Below, piece by piece: positions 4,688 to 12,487 of a stretch of 64,000 bases of DNA. Within the stretch, counting starts at the first letter, position 1, and every line of letters starts with the position of its first letter. Origin of the DNA: Streptomyces griseus subsp. griseus (GTDB lineage: Bacteria > Actinomycetota > Actinomycetes > Streptomycetales > Streptomycetaceae); assembly GCF_003610995.1 (NCBI RefSeq), contig NZ_CP032543.1, positions 6,696,001-6,760,000 of the forward strand. Reading direction: 5' to 3'. Both the position numbers and the translations under genes were made by a program. The notes under the pieces were generated by a model. The model saw only the letters and a program-made list of their open reading frames with translations. It had not been told where the DNA came from and did no database searches.

Positions 4688-5605
4688 TCAGGGCTCCAGC
4701 AGGGGAAGCGCACGCCGGAGCGGGCCCGTGGGGAGGGGCCCGGTCGGCGGCTTGCCCGCGCCGGCCCCGGCGGGTATCCGCTCCAGGACGCCGCCCGCGA
4801 ACACGTCGTACAGCGGCAGTGTCTCCAGGTGCACATAGCCGATGTGACAGTCGCACACGGCGAGCGGACAGGCCCGGGGGCGCAGCGCCGCGCGGTAGCT
4901 GCCGTCGTAGAGGTTGCCCAGCTCCGCCTTGACGAAGTGGCAGCGGCGCACCGTGCCCTCACCGTCCACCGAGATCACCGATTCGCCCGTCCGGCAGGGC
5001 AGCCCCGCCGAGCGGTGCGGATGCCTGCTGTACGGGAAGAGCGGGTCCAGCTCCGTCCACCGCTCGGCCTCCGCGTCGGTGTACGTATGCCCCTCGGCGG
5101 CGTTCACCCAGAGGTAGACCTCGGCGGGCAGTGCGGCGCGCAGCCGCCGCGCCTCGTCGAGGTGCTCGTCGAACCCCACCACGCCCACGCTGAACCGGAT
5201 CCCGCGCTCGGACAGCTCCCGGCAGCGGCCGAGGAACCGCTCGTACGGTGTCTGCCCCGGGTGGTACGTGCACCAGAGCGCGACCCGCTCCGGATCGGCG
5301 TCCGCGAGCCACGCGGTGCGGCCGCTGAGGTTCGTCTGGATGGCGACCCGGCCGATGTGCGGCAACTGGGAGAGCTCGGTCAGCGCGCGCCGGTACCAGG
5401 AGCGCACCAGGCCCTCGCCCCACGGCGTGAACAGCACGGAGAGCCGGTCACCGGTCTGCGCCGCCGCCCACGCCGTGAACCGCTCCAGCGCCTCCCGGTC
5501 GGAGGTCAACTGCGCCCGGCTGTCCCGCCGTTTGGCGAACGGGCAGTACGGACAGTCGTAGTCGCACGAGGCCAGCGGGCCCCGGTAGAGGATGGTCAGG
5601 TCCAT
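4688..5605 (-). CDS. STM4011-family radical SAM protein
   Basis: 305 residues. CDYDCPYC near the N-terminus (Cys14, Cys18, Cys21) is the CX3CX2C motif that binds the SAM-cleaving 4Fe-4S cluster. C-terminal cysteines (CPLAVCDC, GLPCRTG, RRCHF) could hold an auxiliary cluster, which is an inference. The family is named after Salmonella STM4011 and occurs with STM4012-4015. The reaction is unknown. It is the last gene of the six-gene minus-strand operon, 7 bp after the STM4012-like gene. A peptide- or protein-modifying role is plausible but unproven. Confidence 0.9.
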   Translation of the reverse strand: MDLTILYRGPLASCDYDCPYCPFAKRRDSRAQLTSDREALERFTAWAAAQTGDRLSVLFTPWGEGLVRSWYRRALTELSQLPHIGRVAIQTNLSGRTAWLADADPERVALWCTYHPGQTPYERFLGRCRELSERGIRFSVGVVGFDEHLDEARRLRAALPAEVYLWVNAAEGHTYTDAEAERWTELDPLFPYSRHPHRSAGLPCRTGESVISVDGEGTVRRCHFVKAELGNLYDGSYRAALRPRACPLAVCDCHIGYVHLETLPLYDVFAGGVLERIPAGAGAGKPPTGPLPTGPLRRALPLLEP

Positions 5606-5612
5606 GCCCCGC

Positions 5613-6989
5613 TCACTTCCGCTCGTACGCGGCCATCGCGGCCCGTACCCCGGGGGAGAACAGCGCCGGACCCAGCGCGTCCGAGTGGGCCAGCCCCAGC
5701 GGGGAGAGCCGCAGGAGACCCTCCGGTGCCCGGGTGTCCAGCCAGCCCCGGTCCGCGAACCGCTCCAGCTCGGCGGGGAAATCCTCGCGCGGGTCCGTGC
5801 CGAAGCGGGCGCGGTAGTCGGCCACGGGCAGACCGGCCGTCTGGAGCAGGGACTGGAGGAGGTGGCGCCTGCGGGCCTCGGCCACGTCGACGTGTCTGCC
5901 GACCTCGGCCCGGGAGAAGTCCTCGGCGGTGGTGAAGCGGTCGATGATGGAGCGGATCTCCCGCATGTCGACGGCGTAGTCGAAGGAGTAGTGCAGCGCC
6001 GCCGTGTAGGAACGGGCCCCGCAGCCGAGCCCGATCATGCCGTCGGTCTGGCACGCGTAGTCCTCGGGGCCGTCCTGCGCCTCCAAAGGGGCGTCGGCGC
6101 GGCGGAACATCCGCATCGACACCTGCTCGTAGCCGTGCGCCAGCAGATGGTCCCGGCCCACCGCGTAGAGCCGCAGCCGCTGCTCGTCCCAGGCGGCCTG
6201 CTCCAGGGCCTCCGCCTCCGGGCCACTCCCGCCGCCGCCCAGCCGGTGCAGACCGGTCAGCGGGCGGACGTACAGCGGGTAGAGATACAGCTCCTCCGGC
6301 CGCCAGGCCAGCGCGGCGTCCAGCGAGGTGAGCCAGGTGCGCTCGGTCTGGCCGTCGATGCCGTAGATCAGGTCGATGTTCAGCACCGGTGTCCGGGCGT
6401 CCCGGATCCGGCCGAGCGCCGCCTCCACCTCGGCCCGGCGCTGCGGCCGGACGGCGGCCCGGGCCTCCTCGTCCACGAAGCTCTGCACGCCGATGCTCAC
6501 CCGGGTCGTACCCCGGTCGGCCAGCACGGCCAGCCGGTCGGCGGTCGCGGTGGACGGGGACGTCTCCACCGACAGCGGCACCGCGAGCAGGTCGGCGCCC
6601 ATGCGCTTCTCCGCGATGTCGCAGAGCCGCTCCAGCTCAGCCGCGGTCAGGAAGGTCGGCGTCCCGCCGCCGAACGCCGCCGCCGCGAACCGCACCGGCT
6701 CGTCGTCGCCGAGCGCGTCCCGTACGGCCACGGCCTGCCGGTCCAGGGCGTCGAGATAGCGGGTCGTCAGCTCCTCGGGCGCGCCGATCCGGGTGAAGAG
6801 ATTGCAGAAGCCGCAGCGGACCTCGCAGAAGGGGATGTGGAGGTAGAGGGAGAGGGCGTTCTTGGGCTCCGCCGCCCACAGCTCACGCAGCGCGGGCCGG
6901 TCCGTCAGGGGGCGGTAGGCGGTCTTGTGCGGATAGGCGTAGACGTAACTCTCGTACGGCCTCACGGCGGGAGGCGCGGTGGTGGTCAT
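5613..6989 (-). CDS. STM4012-family radical SAM protein (HemN/HemW-like)
   Basis: 458 residues. HIPFCEVRCGFC (Cys55, Cys59, Cys62) is the CX3CX2C cluster motif in the HemN-type context. The motifs AAFGGGTPTFL (glycine-rich SAM-binding) and SIGVQSFVDEEA are also HemN/HemW-like. Coproporphyrinogen oxidase or haem-chaperone paralogs share this core, but the operon context points to the STM4012 family of unknown reaction. Its ATG overlaps the preceding hydrolase stop by one base (TGATG), implying translational coupling. Confidence 0.92.
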   Translation of the reverse strand: MTTTAPPAVRPYESYVYAYPHKTAYRPLTDRPALRELWAAEPKNALSLYLHIPFCEVRCGFCNLFTRIGAPEELTTRYLDALDRQAVAVRDALGDDEPVRFAAAAFGGGTPTFLTAAELERLCDIAEKRMGADLLAVPLSVETSPSTATADRLAVLADRGTTRVSIGVQSFVDEEARAAVRPQRRAEVEAALGRIRDARTPVLNIDLIYGIDGQTERTWLTSLDAALAWRPEELYLYPLYVRPLTGLHRLGGGGSGPEAEALEQAAWDEQRLRLYAVGRDHLLAHGYEQVSMRMFRRADAPLEAQDGPEDYACQTDGMIGLGCGARSYTAALHYSFDYAVDMREIRSIIDRFTTAEDFSRAEVGRHVDVAEARRRHLLQSLLQTAGLPVADYRARFGTDPREDFPAELERFADRGWLDTRAPEGLLRLSPLGLAHSDALGPALFSPGVRAAMAAYERK

Positions 6990-7834
6990 CAGGAGGCCCC
7001 CGGTTCGAGGAAGAAATGGGCGTACGGCACGGTCCAGACGGCTTCGTGGCCGAGCCGGTGGCCGGTGTAGCCGTCGTCGCCGTACGTCGTGCCGTGGTCG
7101 GAGCAGACGATGGCGAAGCAGCGGCGGCGGCTGCTCGCGGCGGCGAAGAGCCGGCCGATGTGCCGGTCGACGTACTCCAGGGCGGCGGCGTGCGTGGCCC
7201 GGGAGTCACCGGCCTCACGGGTCGCGCCCGGGGTGTGGAACCAGTTCGGCTGGTGCAGCGCGGACACATTGACGAAGAGGAGGAGCCGCTGCTCCTCGGG
7301 GAGCCCGGCCACCACCTTCTCCGCCCGGGTCACCTGCTCCTCGAACGAGGTCGGTGAGGCGACACCGAACTCCGGCTCCCAGTGGCTCTCCTGGAACATA
7401 CCGGGCAGCACCGACCCCAGCGGTCCCTGCTTGTTGAAGAACCCGACGCCGCCGATGCAGACCGTGCGATACCCCTCGGCGGCGAGCCCCGACACCAGGT
7501 CCGGGGTGTCGAAGACGAACGTGCCGTCCGCCGTCGTCTCGCTGCCCGCGAAGCGCGCCGCGAACAGTCTCGGATGCGGGCCGGGGGCGGCGGGCGTCGG
7601 CAGGAAACCGGCGAACATCGCCTGGTGCGAGGCGTAGGTGAAGCTGCCCGGCGCATGCCGCCTCTCCCAGACACCGCCGGGGAGACGCGCGGCCAGGTTG
7701 GGGATGCGCCCGGCGGCGGCCAGCTCGGCGGCGACATCGTGGCGCAGCGTGTCCAGGGTGACCAGCAGCAGGTCATGGCTGCCCACGACCTCGGCCATAT
7801 CGGGTCGTGGGAGATCAGGGAGACGTGACGGCAT
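6989..7834 (-). CDS. STM4013/SEN3800-family hydrolase (alkaline phosphatase/sulfatase fold)
   Basis: 281 residues. TLDTLRHDV near the N-terminus and CSDHGTTYGDDG near the C-terminus are the metal-binding motifs of the sulfatase/alkaline-phosphatase superfamily, with the Asp-His pair present. It probably hydrolyses a phosphate or sulfate ester or a phosphodiester, perhaps on the product of the radical SAM enzymes (inference). ATG 7834 is chosen because AACGAGGA lies just upstream and because longer starts run deep into the STM4014-like gene. As called it overlaps that gene by 20 bp. Confidence 0.85.
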   Translation of the reverse strand: MPSRLPDLPRPDMAEVVGSHDLLLVTLDTLRHDVAAELAAAGRIPNLAARLPGGVWERRHAPGSFTYASHQAMFAGFLPTPAAPGPHPRLFAARFAGSETTADGTFVFDTPDLVSGLAAEGYRTVCIGGVGFFNKQGPLGSVLPGMFQESHWEPEFGVASPTSFEEQVTRAEKVVAGLPEEQRLLLFVNVSALHQPNWFHTPGATREAGDSRATHAAALEYVDRHIGRLFAAASSRRRCFAIVCSDHGTTYGDDGYTGHRLGHEAVWTVPYAHFFLEPGAS

Positions 7835-8972
7835 GGTCGTTCCTCGTTCGGTCCAGTACGGCGGCGACCTGCGCCGCATAGGTGTCCAGCCCCTCGGCAC
7901 CGCTGCCCGGCAGCCCGGTCAGCCCGGGCAGCAGATCACCGAAGGCGTTGACCTCACCGACGGCGAAGCGCCGCCAGCCGGCCGCGGGCAGCAGATCGAC
8001 GCCCACACAGAGCGTCCCGGGGAAGCAGGCGGCGGCCCGCTCGCACACCGCCAGCGCCTCGCGCCAGCAGCCGCCCACCGCCGACACGGCGGCCCGGACC
8101 TCGTCGAGATCGCCGCGGGCGCCCCCGAGATGGAGGTTGGTCATGGGGGAGAGGCTGGTGCGCACGACGGCATGGGTGGCCCGGCCGCCGACCACCACGA
8201 TCCGCAGATCGGCGGCCCGCCCCCGCTGGGACGCCTTCGGCAGCCAGCGTTCGATGTGCAGCCCGTCCGGGGCGAGCGCGTCCACGAGCGCGCCCACCTC
8301 CTGCTCCGTGGTGTACCGCCGGACCCTCAGCGAGTTGTACAGCCGCCCCTCGGCGTCGCGTTCCACCGAGGTGCTCGCCCGGACCCGGCCGGGACCCGCC
8401 GTCTCCACCGCCAGCACCCCCGAGGCGGAGGAGCCGTGCGCGAGCTTCACGAACGCCCGGGGCATCCGGTGCTCCCGCATCAGCGCCCGTACGTCGGACC
8501 AGCCCCGCACCTCCGCCGCGTCCGGGCCGGACGTGGGCGACGGGGGAACCGGCACCTCCGCAGCCGCCAGGCGGGCGTGGCAGAGCCGCTTGTCGAAGAG
8601 CGCGGCGAGGTCACCGGGCGAGGAGAGCGTCTCGGCACCGGCCGCCGAGGCCGCCCGCGCCACCTCGCCGACCGCAGTGCGGAACCCGGCGTACCACCGC
8701 GCGGACCCCTCCACCCGGGTCGGATCGTCGACCCCGCGCAGCAGCCGCTCCACCTCCGCGTTCTCGCCGGGCGAGTCGATCCGTACGGTCTCGCCCGGCT
8801 CGAACGCCGCCTCGCCGCGCAGCACCTGGAGCCAGGGCACCACCCGGGCCGGCTCCAGCCCGGCGGCCCGCACGGCCTCCCGGAAGAAGGCGACCCGGCG
8901 GTTCTCCGGATTGCCCACGACCGCGAGACGCGGGGCCGCCACGCTGCCCGGGCTACTCGCTGACGGCGACAT
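7815..8972 (-). CDS. STM4014-family protein, ATP-grasp-like ligase
   Basis: 385 residues. The central AFVKLAHGSSASGVLAVE resembles the ATP-grasp nucleotide-binding lysine and glycine-rich loop. The C-terminal GVDLLPAAGWRRFAVGEVNAFGD resembles the Glu/Asn metal-binding end of ATP-grasp enzymes. Members of that superfamily join a carboxylate to an amine or thiol. If this is right, the operon pairs a ligase with two radical SAM enzymes, as in peptide-modification pathways. Assignment to the fold is by motif reading only. It overlaps its neighbours at both ends by about 20 bp. Confidence 0.78.
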   Translation of the reverse strand: MSPSASSPGSVAAPRLAVVGNPENRRVAFFREAVRAAGLEPARVVPWLQVLRGEAAFEPGETVRIDSPGENAEVERLLRGVDDPTRVEGSARWYAGFRTAVGEVARAASAAGAETLSSPGDLAALFDKRLCHARLAAAEVPVPPSPTSGPDAAEVRGWSDVRALMREHRMPRAFVKLAHGSSASGVLAVETAGPGRVRASTSVERDAEGRLYNSLRVRRYTTEQEVGALVDALAPDGLHIERWLPKASQRGRAADLRIVVVGGRATHAVVRTSLSPMTNLHLGGARGDLDEVRAAVSAVGGCWREALAVCERAAACFPGTLCVGVDLLPAAGWRRFAVGEVNAFGDLLPGLTGLPGSGAEGLDTYAAQVAAVLDRTRNDHAVTSP

Positions 8973-9900
8973 AGCGCTCCGGTTCCTCGTCCGGGTCCGC
9001 GTAGTCCTCCTCGGCCTCGTCGCCCTCCACCACGGCCGGGGCGCACGCGACCCTGATCCGCTCCAGCACCGGGCCGCTGAGGTAGTGGTGGCGCAGGTCG
9101 AGAGTGGAGAGGTGGTTCAGCGGCTGCCCGTTCAGCAGGGCCTCCCCGCCGATGTCGCTGAGGGTGCCCATGGAGAGCGCCAGGGTATCCAGCTGGGCGA
9201 CGACGGGCGCCGACGCCACGGCCGCCGCTATCCCGTCCTGGAGCTCGCTGTTCTGCAGGCCCAGGTGGCGCAGCCGGGGCAACGTGCCGCCCGACAGGAC
9301 CGGCCCGATGTCCTCCACCGTGGCATCCGCGCCGTACCACGAGCTGCCGAACCACAGGTCCAGCCGCTCCAGCGCGGGCAGTTCACTCGCGGCGACCGCC
9401 CGCACCAGATCGCCGGGCAGCCCGCCCGACTCGAAGCGCAGCGACTTCAGCGCCGTATGGCGGACCGGCCGCAGCGCCAGCCCGTCCTCGCCGCAGCCGC
9501 GCACCGTGAACTCCTCCAACCACGGCAGCGCTTCGAGAACCGGGGTGACGTCGCACATCTGCAGCCACGACACCTCGCACTCCTCACTCACCACATCGGC
9601 GAGGAACAGCCCCCGCAGGGCCGGAAAACGGTCCGCGTGCGCGACCAGCAGGTCCCGCACGGGCTCGAAGGAGCTGTAGTCCCCGTCCCACCACGGGCCG
9701 ATGAGGAGTGCCCGGACCTGTGCCGTGTCGACGCTGTCGAGGAACCGCTGCCACAGGACGGCGAAGTCCGTCTGTTCGTCGTAGTCGGTCTCCAGCCGCC
9801 AGGCCACCGTGTCGGCGGCTGGCCGGGCCCCGGACGCCGCCCAGGTATGGACCGGCAGGCCGTTGAAGTGGTCAGGATGCTCGATATCGATGTAGGTCAT
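8953..9900 (-). CDS. STM4015-family leucine-rich protein (copy 2)
   Basis: 315 residues. The C-terminal two-thirds contain leucine-rich-repeat-like units (LPALERLDLWFG, LPRLRHLGLQNSELQ, LNHLSTLDLRHHYLSG). The N-terminus (HPDHFNGLPVHTW) matches the family start. It closely parallels the adjacent gene at 9,907-10,860, with only 6 bp between them, so this is a tandem duplication. The function is unknown; LRR proteins usually mediate protein-protein contacts, so a substrate-recognition or scaffold role is possible. Confidence 0.85.
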   Translation of the reverse strand: MTYIDIEHPDHFNGLPVHTWAASGARPAADTVAWRLETDYDEQTDFAVLWQRFLDSVDTAQVRALLIGPWWDGDYSSFEPVRDLLVAHADRFPALRGLFLADVVSEECEVSWLQMCDVTPVLEALPWLEEFTVRGCGEDGLALRPVRHTALKSLRFESGGLPGDLVRAVAASELPALERLDLWFGSSWYGADATVEDIGPVLSGGTLPRLRHLGLQNSELQDGIAAAVASAPVVAQLDTLALSMGTLSDIGGEALLNGQPLNHLSTLDLRHHYLSGPVLERIRVACAPAVVEGDEAEEDYADPDEEPERYVAVSE

Positions 9901-9906
9901 GACACC

Positions 9907-10860
9907 TCACTCCGAGACGGCCGTGTAGCGGCCCTCGGCGCCGCGGTTGTCCCACGGCTCGTTCCGCTCGGACAGATCGACGCGCACCCCGTGCGGCTCC
10001 AGGGCCGAGCGGACCCGCTGCTCCATCGCCTCCGTGAGGAAGTGGTGGTGGAGGTCCAGCAGGTCGAGGTGGGTGAGCGGCTGTCCTGCGAGGAGCGCGG
10101 CCGCGCCCTCGTCGCCCAGCGTCCCGTTCGACAGGTCGAGGGTCTTGAGCTGGGCCACGACCGGAGCGGACGCGACCGCCGCCGCGATCTCGTTCTGCAC
10201 CTCGCTGTTGCGCAGCCCCAGGTGGTGCAGGCGGGGGAACCGGGTGCCCGAGAGCAGCGGCGCCAGGTCCGCCACATCGGTGTCGCCGCCGTAGGCCGAG
10301 ATGCCGAGCCAGAGGTCCAGCCGCTCCAGCGCGGGCAGCTCGCTGTCCAGCACCCCTCGGACCACCTGGACGGGCAGACCGCCCGCCTGGATGGTCAGCG
10401 ACCGCAGCCGGTCGTGCTTCGTCGGCGGGAACACCAGGTCGGTGCCGCCCCGGACCCCGAACTCGGTCAGCGCGGGGAAGGCGGCCAGCAGCGCCGTCAC
10501 ATCCGACTGCTCGATCCAGGTGATCTCGGCCTGCTCCGCCTCCAGATCCCCGACGAACACCGCCTCCAGCGAGGTCAGCCGCTCGGCGGCGGCGATCACC
10601 AGGCTGATCGGCACCGAGGAGTTCTCCTCGTACGCCTCGCCCCACTGGCCGATGATCAGCACCCTGACCCCGGCCGGATCGACCGCGTCCAGGAAGGCGG
10701 CGAACTCCTGCTCCCAGCTCTGGTCCTCGTCGTCGTAGGGATCGACGGAGATGCGCCAGGCCACATCACCGGCCGCGGGCCGGTCGGCCTGGCGGTCCTT
10801 GTGCTGGAAGTCGACGGCCGGAAGGCCGCCGAACGCTTGCAGATGCTGGGCACCGTACAT
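9907..10860 (-). CDS. STM4015-family leucine-rich protein (copy 1, first gene of operon)
   Basis: 317 residues. It has the same layout as its downstream paralog: MYGAQHLQAFGGLPAVDF at the start, then repeats such as LPALERLDLWLG, FPRLHHLGLRNSEVQ and LTHLDLLDLHHHFL. ATG 10860 is preferred over the far upstream in-frame codon because AGGAG lies 8 bp before it and it matches the paralog start. A promoter-like TTGTCAGTG-N8-TAAACC lies about 42-64 bp upstream on the minus strand. Confidence 0.87.
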   Translation of the reverse strand: MYGAQHLQAFGGLPAVDFQHKDRQADRPAAGDVAWRISVDPYDDEDQSWEQEFAAFLDAVDPAGVRVLIIGQWGEAYEENSSVPISLVIAAAERLTSLEAVFVGDLEAEQAEITWIEQSDVTALLAAFPALTEFGVRGGTDLVFPPTKHDRLRSLTIQAGGLPVQVVRGVLDSELPALERLDLWLGISAYGGDTDVADLAPLLSGTRFPRLHHLGLRNSEVQNEIAAAVASAPVVAQLKTLDLSNGTLGDEGAAALLAGQPLTHLDLLDLHHHFLTEAMEQRVRSALEPHGVRVDLSERNEPWDNRGAEGRYTAVSE

Positions 10861-10901
10861 CGCACTGAGCTCCTGGTCCTGGGGACGGCTGATGTCCGCA
10901 A

Positions 10902-10924
10902 GGTTTATCAAGCCGCACTGACAA
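10902..10924 (-). promoter_or_regulatory. PafBC-type (RecA-independent DNA-damage) promoter of the STM4015-4011 operon
   Basis: Read on the minus strand, TTGTCAGTG (10,924-10,916), 8 bp, then TAAACC (10,907-10,902). The published actinobacterial RecA-NDp consensus is tTGTCRgtg-N8-TAnnnT. The nine-base -35 part is a full match and the spacing is exact; only the last base of the -10 hexamer differs (the next base is T). Predicted transcription starts about 35 bp before the first gene. Confidence 0.7.
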
Positions 10925-10987
10925 CGCCGCGACCGGGACCGCTTCGAGCCGGTCGTCCGACGTCTCCGGGCCCGCGCGCAGGGCCCG

Positions 10988-11010
10988 TTGTCAGACCCTG
11001 CCCGTAGCGT
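10988..11010 (+). promoter_or_regulatory. Second PafBC-type promoter, rightward
   Basis: TTGTCAGAC (10,988-10,996), 8 bp, then TAGCGT (11,005-11,010). It fits TTGTCR-N3-N8-TAnnnT with two changes in the gtg triplet. It lies about 50 bp before the GTG of the GHAH protein gene and back to back with the leftward site. Confidence 0.62.
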
Positions 11011-11058
11011 TTTTCCCGTGGTCGGCACAGCGGGTGCCGCGACCGAGGGGAGACGTCT

Positions 11059-11385
11059 GTGTACCGGCAGGGCGATGTACTGATCATGGCGCTGGAGGAG
11101 TCGGCGGTGCCCGCCCCCTTCCTCAAGGCATCGGGCGAACTGCGCGACGGGCGGGGGCGGCTGGTGCTCGCGCTGGGGGAGGTGACCGGGCACGCCCACG
11201 CCGTGCAGGGGCCCGGCCGGCTGATCCGGGAGGCGGGACCGTTCGGCCCGATGCTGCTCCATCTCCCCGAGGGCGGACGGGTGGTGCACGAGGAGCACGC
11301 CACGATCGCGCTGCCGCAGGGCTGGTTCCGGGTGGTGCGCCAGCGGGAGTACGCGCCCGGCGCGATCCGCATCGTCGCGGACTGA
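11059..11385 (+). CDS. Small conserved protein with GHAH and HEEH motifs
   Basis: 108 residues from GTG 11059, with GGGGAG 8 bp upstream. Notable motifs are YRQGDVLI at the start, LGEVTGHAHAV in the middle, VVHEEHATIALPQGWFRVVRQREY near the end, and a final Asp. The four His residues in GHAH and HEEH look like metal ligands on a small beta-rich domain; this is inference. I do not know a function. It lies 100 bp before a DUF6745 gene and shares a divergent, apparently damage-inducible control region with the STM4015 operon. Confidence 0.75.
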   Translation: MYRQGDVLIMALEESAVPAPFLKASGELRDGRGRLVLALGEVTGHAHAVQGPGRLIREAGPFGPMLLHLPEGGRVVHEEHATIALPQGWFRVVRQREYAPGAIRIVAD

Positions 11386-11485: not shown

Positions 11486-12487
11486 ATGCAGCACGTGAAT
11501 TCCTGGCGGGACGTGGCGGCGGCGACCGGCACGGCGGACCGGGCGGCCGCCGAGGAGGGCGTGCGCCGCGCCTACCGCACCGCCGGGCTCGCCGAGCCCG
11601 AGCGGATCGTCTGGGCCGGATCGCCCAGGGCGGCCGTCGAAGCCGTCGAGAAGCTGACCGACGCCGGACGGTCGGTGCGCGAAGAGGTCCGCACCCGGCC
11701 GTGGGCCGAGGAGCGCCGCCGGATGTACGACGAGCTGGGCCCGGCCGGCTGGTCCGCTCTCTGGTCCGCCACCGGGGCCCAGCTCTGGGAGACCACGGCC
11801 GCGCTCGCCGAGCGCATCCGGTCCGGCGTCGTCGCCGATCTGGCACCCAGGCCGGAGGACGAGGGCGGTGTGCGGCTGGTCCTCCTCGACGCGGTCCTCG
11901 GCCAGCACGACGCCGCCTGGCTCGCCGCCTTCGACGGGCGCGGCGACCGGCTCACCGGCCTGGCCGAGGTCGCGCGGAACGCGGGCTGGTGGTGGCCGTA
12001 CGAGAAGGCCGTGGTCATCAGCGAGCGGCCCGAGGTCCTGCACCGCGACGAGGCGGGCAGACTCGACCACGGGGCCGGTCCTGCCCTCGCCTACCCGGAC
12101 GGGTTCGCCCTGTACGCATGGCGGGGCATGCCGGTGCCCGCCGCGTTCCTGGCGGAGCTGGCGTCCCTCACCCCGCAGCGGATACGCGAGGAGGAGAACG
12201 CGGAGCTGCGCCGCGTGATGCTGGAGTTCTACGGCTACGACCGCTACCTCACGGAGTCGGGGGCCGAGCCCGTCCACCGCGACGAGACGGGCATCCTCTG
12301 GCGCATCGCGCTCGAAGGCGACGAGGACGTGGTGATGGTCGAGGTGGTCAACTCCACCCCGGAGCCCGACGGCACCCACCGCACCTACTGGCTCCGCGTA
12401 CCGCCCACGACGCGGACCGCGAAGGACGGGGTCGCCTGGACGTTCGGACTGGACGGCGCCGCCTACGCGCCGGTACGTCAGACCTGA
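11486..12487 (+). CDS. DUF6745 domain protein
   Basis: 333 residues. Segments typical of DUF6745 as I remember it: IVWAGSPRAAV, NAGWWWPYEKAVVISERPEVLHRDEAGRLDH, GPALAYPDGFALYAWRGMPVPAAFL, and near the end VHRDETGILWRIAL. No signal peptide or membrane segment is present and the function is unknown. The HRDEAGRLDH and HRDETGILW repeats are internally similar. Co-orientation with the GHAH gene suggests a two-gene unit. Confidence 0.8.
   Translation: MQHVNSWRDVAAATGTADRAAAEEGVRRAYRTAGLAEPERIVWAGSPRAAVEAVEKLTDAGRSVREEVRTRPWAEERRRMYDELGPAGWSALWSATGAQLWETTAALAERIRSGVVADLAPRPEDEGGVRLVLLDAVLGQHDAAWLAAFDGRGDRLTGLAEVARNAGWWWPYEKAVVISERPEVLHRDEAGRLDHGAGPALAYPDGFALYAWRGMPVPAAFLAELASLTPQRIREEENAELRRVMLEFYGYDRYLTESGAEPVHRDETGILWRIALEGDEDVVMVEVVNSTPEPDGTHRTYWLRVPPTTRTAKDGVAWTFGLDGAAYAPVRQT

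Follow-up and report, generated by a model that had tools for sequence, protein, structure and literature searches.

The 198-bp gap at positions 10861-11058 of the window (the whole 64,000-nucleotide stretch of Streptomyces griseus subsp. griseus DNA analyzed here) contains two divergent candidate promoters of the PafBC type. We consider it likely that these sites drive the transcription units on either side and that both units take part in the DNA-damage response. Because the promoter pattern is kept in many related bacteria, the genes of both units are probably an unrecognised part of this response. This supports the original prediction that both units are damage-response members, as a prediction and by sequence comparison.

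The gap separates the start of an STM4015 gene (10860, minus strand) from the start of the gene for a small protein, here called GHAH (11059, plus strand). To the left lie six minus-strand genes (4688-10860). They encode two STM4015 family proteins (9907-10860, the first gene of the operon, and 8953-9900; NF038076, 393 and 370 bits), an STM4014 family protein (7815-8972; NF038074, 466 bits), an STM4013/SEN3800 family hydrolase of the sulfatase/phosphodiesterase superfamily (6989-7900; NF038075, PF00884), a HemN-like STM4012 family radical SAM protein (5613-6989; NF006067, PF04055, PF06969) and an STM4011 family radical SAM protein (4688-5605; NF038073, 423 bits). The STM4014 protein weakly resembles RimK-type ATP-grasp ligases (rimK_fam, 24.6 bits, below its cut-off). 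To the right, on the plus strand, the 108-amino-acid GHAH protein (11059-11385) is followed by a DUF6745 protein (11486-12487; PF20530, 387 bits). These flanking genes agree with those named in the original prediction, STM4015-4011 leftward and GHAH/DUF6745 rightward.

The GHAH protein itself had no match in Pfam and NCBIfam searches, and its profile had none among solved structures at E values up to 1. Residues G44-H45-A46-H47 and H77-E78-E79-H80 are invariant across 38 aligned actinobacterial homologues. The predicted fold is beta-rich; we trust it moderately, since the best mean pLDDT was 83.5 and the five models spanned 55.6-83.5. An anti-phage system was considered and dropped, as PADLOC gave one weak hit over the eight proteins (STM4012, 18.8 bits). 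A phage origin was also dropped: among the eight, only GHAH (49 bits) and DUF6745 (40 bits) matched PHROG families.

Promoters of the PafBC type are described as carrying a "-26 motif" rather than a -35 element (PMC11804915). In Streptomyces, the recA promoter of S. rimosus reads TTGTCAGTGGC-N6-TAGggT (Ahel et al. 2002, as quoted in PMC2375139). The macrodomain gene SCO6735 of S. coelicolor is reported to have such a RecA-NDp promoter and to be UV-inducible (PMC5087735, PMC9411070). At the time, SCO6735 likewise had no known role, and its RecA-NDp promoter is conserved (PMC5087735); it has one promoter for one gene, whereas the gap studied here has a divergent pair serving two units. Thus the link between this motif and DNA damage in Streptomyces is already known, and the assignment of these two gene units is new. 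Judging by title, no open-access PMC paper found for STM4011 to STM4015 or DUF6745 treats them as such targets.

The two divergent sites of the original prediction, with their fixed spacing, were confirmed from the sequence. The leftward site, TTGTCAGTG-CGGCTTGA-TAAACC (10902-10924, minus strand), consists of the box TTGTCAGTG (10924-10916), eight bases and the -10 element TAAACC (10907-10902). The rightward site, TTGTCAGAC-CCTGCCCG-TAGCGT (10988-11010, plus strand), consists of TTGTCAGACC, seven bases and the -10 element TAGCGT (11005-11010). In both, 11 bases lie between TTGTCA and TA, and, as read from the sequence, neither -10 has a hexamer resembling a -35 at 17 bases upstream. They resemble RecA-NDp/PafBC promoters in the box, in the 11-base distance to the -10 and in the lack of a -35, and also in the repair genes found downstream of such sites and the presence of pafBC in the genome.

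Each site departs once from the consensus tTGTCRgtg-N8-TAnnnT, and both departures are conserved among orthologues. The left box is a complete TTGTCRGTG with the N8 spacing. The original prediction had called it a complete -35 element: the box sequence is indeed complete, but it is no sigma -35, lying 11 bases from the -10 at the position of the "-26 motif". The left -10 had also been read as TAnnnT, which is not the case, as TAAACC ends in C. Instead, an extended -10 TG (10910-10909) is present one base ahead of TA. The right site has a TTGTCR box (10988-10993), the N8 spacing and TANNNT, and carries GAC, the start of GACC, where the family has GTG. We filed it as a variant because the letters after the box were in lower case, that is, less strict, in the consensus of the original prediction.

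The regulator and its usual targets are present in the host, given a PafB/PafC pair and strict sites before repair genes. Two WYL proteins (PafB, PafC) are encoded between pafA and tatA/tatC, and both match solved PafB/PafC chains (7p5x, 6sj9; E values 7e-46 to 5e-56). The strict pattern TTGTCRGTG-N8-TANNNT has 19 sites in the 7.24-Mb genome and none with the reversed control. By our count, nine of the 19 lie ahead of genes with a recognisable role in repair or replication, namely recA, ung, nth, ogt, dnaN, a rarA-like gene, a PcrA-like N-terminus, a UvrD-like helicase and a YoaA/DinG-like helicase. At the other ten, the downstream gene has no recognised repair role or none could be assigned; they include a WGR protein, a SWIM protein, an ECF sigma factor, an ABC permease and unknowns, and one site (L001) is apparently inside a gene. 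The form TTGTCAGTG-N8-TA also occurs 19 times, the left site among them (reversed control 0), and TTGTCA-N11-TANNNT occurs 28 times (reversed control 3). For S. venezuelae, the authors of an initial search reported that it pointed to a lack of conservation of the mycobacterial PafBC motif (PMC9380542). The motif counts in this relative of S. venezuelae point in the opposite direction.

Conservation was examined in orthologous loci found with the STM4012 protein (80 loci listed of 530 confirmed candidates, nearly all from Streptomyces). Left counts omit two loci with no STM4015 upstream region (L070, L089), and right counts omit eight without a usable GHAH start. The first box base was relaxed to any base after the data had been seen, so strict counts are given alongside. 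The left site was present in 77 of 78 testable regions (56/78 with the strict first T), with L098 as the lone miss. The right site was present in all 72, always with TANNNT (strict TTGTCR, 62/72). The reversed patterns gave 0/78 and 0/72, and the background of strict sites was 3 in 2.59 million strand-bases. The counts come from related species and are not independent. When 68 gap sequences were aligned (the window plus 67 of the 80 loci), both sites stood out against a variable middle.

These results bear on the possibility that the motifs in the gap arose by chance or belong to ordinary housekeeping promoters. The loosest pattern used does give 3 control matches per genome. Against it are the absence of reversed matches in the orthologue tests, conservation of the motifs over families and the lack of a -35-like hexamer. 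We regard this explanation as very improbable.

The left promoter is the less canonical of the two. Its final -10 base in 77 orthologous sites is C in 74, A in 3 and T in none. By comparison, a final T is found in 18 of the 19 genomic TTGTCAGTG-N8-TA sites and is absent from the left site and its orthologues. The extended TG is present in 77/77 orthologous left sites versus 0/72 right sites, and may compensate for the missing final T. Among the 77 left sites of the 80-locus set, 74 retain GTG, while the first T of the box varies. The layout TGTCRGT-N6-TGNTANAMC was found at 50 places among the matches listed for 61 genomes, 36 of which had it (control 2); 21 of these places, in 20 stretches, were fetched and read. 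It precedes priA in a relative (G428), as TG-N-TA-N-A-M-C. Other places precede leucine-rich repeat (LRR) proteins resembling STM4015 by eye, or genes without a known repair link. The left layout thus extends beyond DNA repair genes.

Therefore, one could suppose that only the right promoter depends on PafBC and that the left is an extended -10 promoter (TG-N-TA-NANC) whose TGTCR box serves another activator. The -10 that never ends in T, the constant TG, the layout ahead of unrelated genes and the loss of GTG at six of the seven distant loci described below would fit this. The conservation of TGTC and of GTG (not TTG; 74/77), however, fits PafBC better than a sigma -35, the box spacing is fixed, and priA, a repair gene, shares the layout. 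We judge such an ordinary left promoter unlikely. The left site may work like the RecA-NDp family despite TAAACC, and we hold a PafBC-type left promoter to be fairly probable.

Two kinds of related site were seen in passing. Sites of the form TGTCAGTG-N5-TGGTA occur near chromosome ends, at both ends in G023 and at one end in G403 (L138, L143); the L138 site precedes a protein weakly similar to the beta-lactamase superfamily (20.5 bits, below the cut-off). TGTCAGT-N6-TTGATACAAC was noticed by eye ahead of short genes whose products start with MPN or MPS (L144, L147, L156), possibly a separate promoter class sharing the left layout.

For the right promoter, TTGTCR-N11-TANNNT has a single occurrence in the 64-kb window, the right site itself (0.06 expected). 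TTGTCAGACC occurs five times in the 7.24-Mb genome, each time with TANNNT at the correct distance. The other four sites are at an SCO1167-type helicase, a DUF4240 protein, a HAD-type hydrolase and a place with no assignable gene. Across the genus, TTGTCAGACC-N7-TANNNT was found in 84 of 101 genomes and its reversed control in none. The letters after the box in the 72 orthologous GHAH promoters were GACC in 63, GTG in 8 and GTCC in 1. A relative, G403, has six GACC sites: before ligA (187 bp ahead of the start codon we chose), an SCO1167-type helicase, exonuclease III (xth), pup, a conserved unknown protein and a protein without a family match. The conserved unknown protein has a GACC site in G403 (L131) and a GTG site in the window's genome (L004), the two proteins being 88% identical. 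Among the matches listed for TTGTCAGACC in the open-access PMC literature, none was on actinobacteria by title.

The sharpness of the GACC class could mean that a different activator, for example another WYL protein, reads it as a regulon of its own, and the genome has five WYL matches besides pafB and pafC. Yet GACC and GTG interchange at the same position in orthologous promoters, both box classes precede repair genes, and in G403 a site of the GACC class is found before pup itself. These points make a separate activator rather improbable, and the simplest reading is that one regulator accepts both boxes. That the right promoter is of the PafBC type is, on this comparative evidence, highly probable. 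Through the GACC box, the Streptomyces PafBC regulon would gain genes (ligA, xth and pup in one relative) that searches based on GTG overlook. The box is also relevant to whether Streptomyces has a PafBC-like, RecA/LexA-independent response, a point that PMC9380542 leaves undecided. The TTGTCAGACC-type promoter of pup (L132, G403:C1:1970387-1973887) was a side observation; it would link the Pup-proteasome system with the damage regulator whose genes neighbour pafA.

LexA control of the window's promoters was considered and dropped. The SOS box tCGAAC-N4-GNNCGa (PMC9380542) does not occur in 10860-11058, and the LexA-like matches in the window all fall outside that interval. Elsewhere, a LexA-like box directly follows the GHAH -10 in 7 of 72 orthologues (L072, L077, L079, L087, L092, L094, L097), with CGAACACG-N-GAACG in six and one variant. 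This suggests joint control of GHAH by PafBC and LexA in a group of species, and mycobacterial recA has been described as under both systems (PMC8223512). The same seven leaders and the recA example could be taken to mean that in some species GHAH responds to damage through LexA and not PafBC; with the box absent from the 65 other leaders and without a match in the window's gap, we think this most unlikely. In a separate matter, the LexA-bound S. venezuelae "radical SAM protein" vnz_31145, likened to UV cross-link repair enzymes, could not be connected with the operon.

If the mechanism shown in mycobacteria (PMC11804915) applies here, damage would leave single-stranded DNA, which would activate PafBC. 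PafBC would then insert between the housekeeping sigma factor and the promoter and read the -26 box, and RNA polymerase would start although the -35 is missing. PafBC binding and damage induction would be expected at both promoters. The left promoter would drive the STM4015-4015-4014-4013-4012-4011 operon from an estimated start near 10895, and the right promoter would drive GHAH-DUF6745 from near 11017. As there is one divergent PafBC-type promoter per unit, we propose that one signal induces both. The gap differs from other promoters of this family in its right GACC for GTG and in its left extended -10 without the final T.

Outside Streptomyces, the two units were analyzed separately. GHAH was found in 32 of 394 genomes of the class, a set that overlaps the 80 loci above (G107 and L025 are apparently the same contig). 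We examined 30 GHAH loci, including the window's own (L158); 14 are outside the genus, with 59-66% protein identity. NTGTCR-N11-TANNNT was present within 150 bp upstream of GHAH in 30/30 loci, and the reversed pattern in 0/30. Elsewhere the pattern was not seen in 190,320 strand-bases, and it appeared in 1 of 6000 shuffled regions (here and in the Deinococcus test below, shuffles preserve base composition only). The first box base was T in only 1 of the 14 loci outside the genus. Six GHAH loci of other families were read from end to end; there the two units are convergent, and every GHAH gene retains a box of its own. With the units tail to tail, a shared gap cannot explain the conservation of the box.

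For STM4015, the box was found in 7 of 9 further loci outside Streptomyces: in all five testable loci of these six, in Nonomuraea and in G204 (L192 was left out of these counts). TGTC and the spacing are kept at these seven distant sites, with TG in 7/7 and GTG in 1/7. In Embleya, the STM4015 site fails the pattern by one TGTC base in both loci, and a box is present before STM4012 instead. By its own terms, the original prediction would have been contradicted if orthologous operons lacked the motif upstream; the motif was in fact found there (left 77/78, right 72/72, GHAH 30/30, STM4015 7/9). We infer that the two units form one damage-wired module in actinobacteria.

The same module, a GHAH-like gene and DUF6745 opposite STM4015-4011, is carried by three Deinococcus plasmids. 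D. ficus, likewise on a plasmid, has GHAH and DUF6745 with no STM4015-4011 nearby. The radiation-desiccation response motif (RDRM) of D. radiodurans is given as TATGYYHTTARCRKA (PMC8533742). With at most two mismatches, an RDRM lies 27-62 bp upstream of the GHAH-like gene in 4/4 Deinococcus loci; no further match occurs across 66 kb of these loci, and shuffled versions of each region match at rates of 0.2-2%. The two-mismatch limit was chosen once a looser form, allowing up to five mismatches, had already revealed three of the four sites, so that D. ficus alone is a fresh test. No RDRM was found upstream of the three Deinococcus STM4015 operons. Likewise, no LexA-type box was found upstream in one locus each of Methylobacterium, Skermanella, Paenibacillus and Salmonella. 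With RDRM sites at 4/4 GHAH genes and 0/3 STM4015 operons, damage control is therefore supported in two phyla for GHAH-DUF6745 only, and for STM4015-4011 the support is limited to actinobacteria.

The Deinococcus GHAH-DUF6745 relatives are probably wired to DNA damage via DdrO, judging from the RDRM-type site near their start codon, which is their likeness to the DdrO/IrrE radiation-desiccation regulon. This regulon (PMC8533742) differs from the PafBC system by release from a repressor instead of activation, and by an unrelated regulator and motif. If true, damage control has evolved at least twice on the same genes, with PafBC in actinobacteria and DdrO in Deinococcus. Control by two unrelated damage regulators would argue strongly for a genuine role in surviving damage. 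A similar two-phylum pattern was noted for WGR proteins: a WGR-domain protein in the window's genome is preceded by a strict PafBC-type site (L019, G000:C1:7213134), and the WGR protein DR2173 is listed in the DdrO regulon of D. radiodurans (PMC8533742).

DNA damage thus becomes a testable condition of use for this conserved group of genes, which encode radical SAM enzymes, an ATP-grasp-like protein, a hydrolase and a small protein. The two radical SAM enzymes, the ATP-grasp-like protein and the hydrolase lead us to speculate that the module is a damage-induced modification or small-molecule pathway. We are evenly divided on the wider reading, in which the module crosses phyla (under PafBC in actinobacteria and, for at least its GHAH-DUF6745 half, under DdrO in Deinococcus) and its radical SAM enzymes make a damage-induced modification or a protective molecule outside the known repair pathways.

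A distant STM4013 homologue (45% identity) was also seen on a Streptomyces albidoflavus plasmid (L203), together with a radical SAM protein, a thymidylate kinase and a NUDIX hydrolase. This cluster is near genes annotated as lasso peptide biosynthesis.
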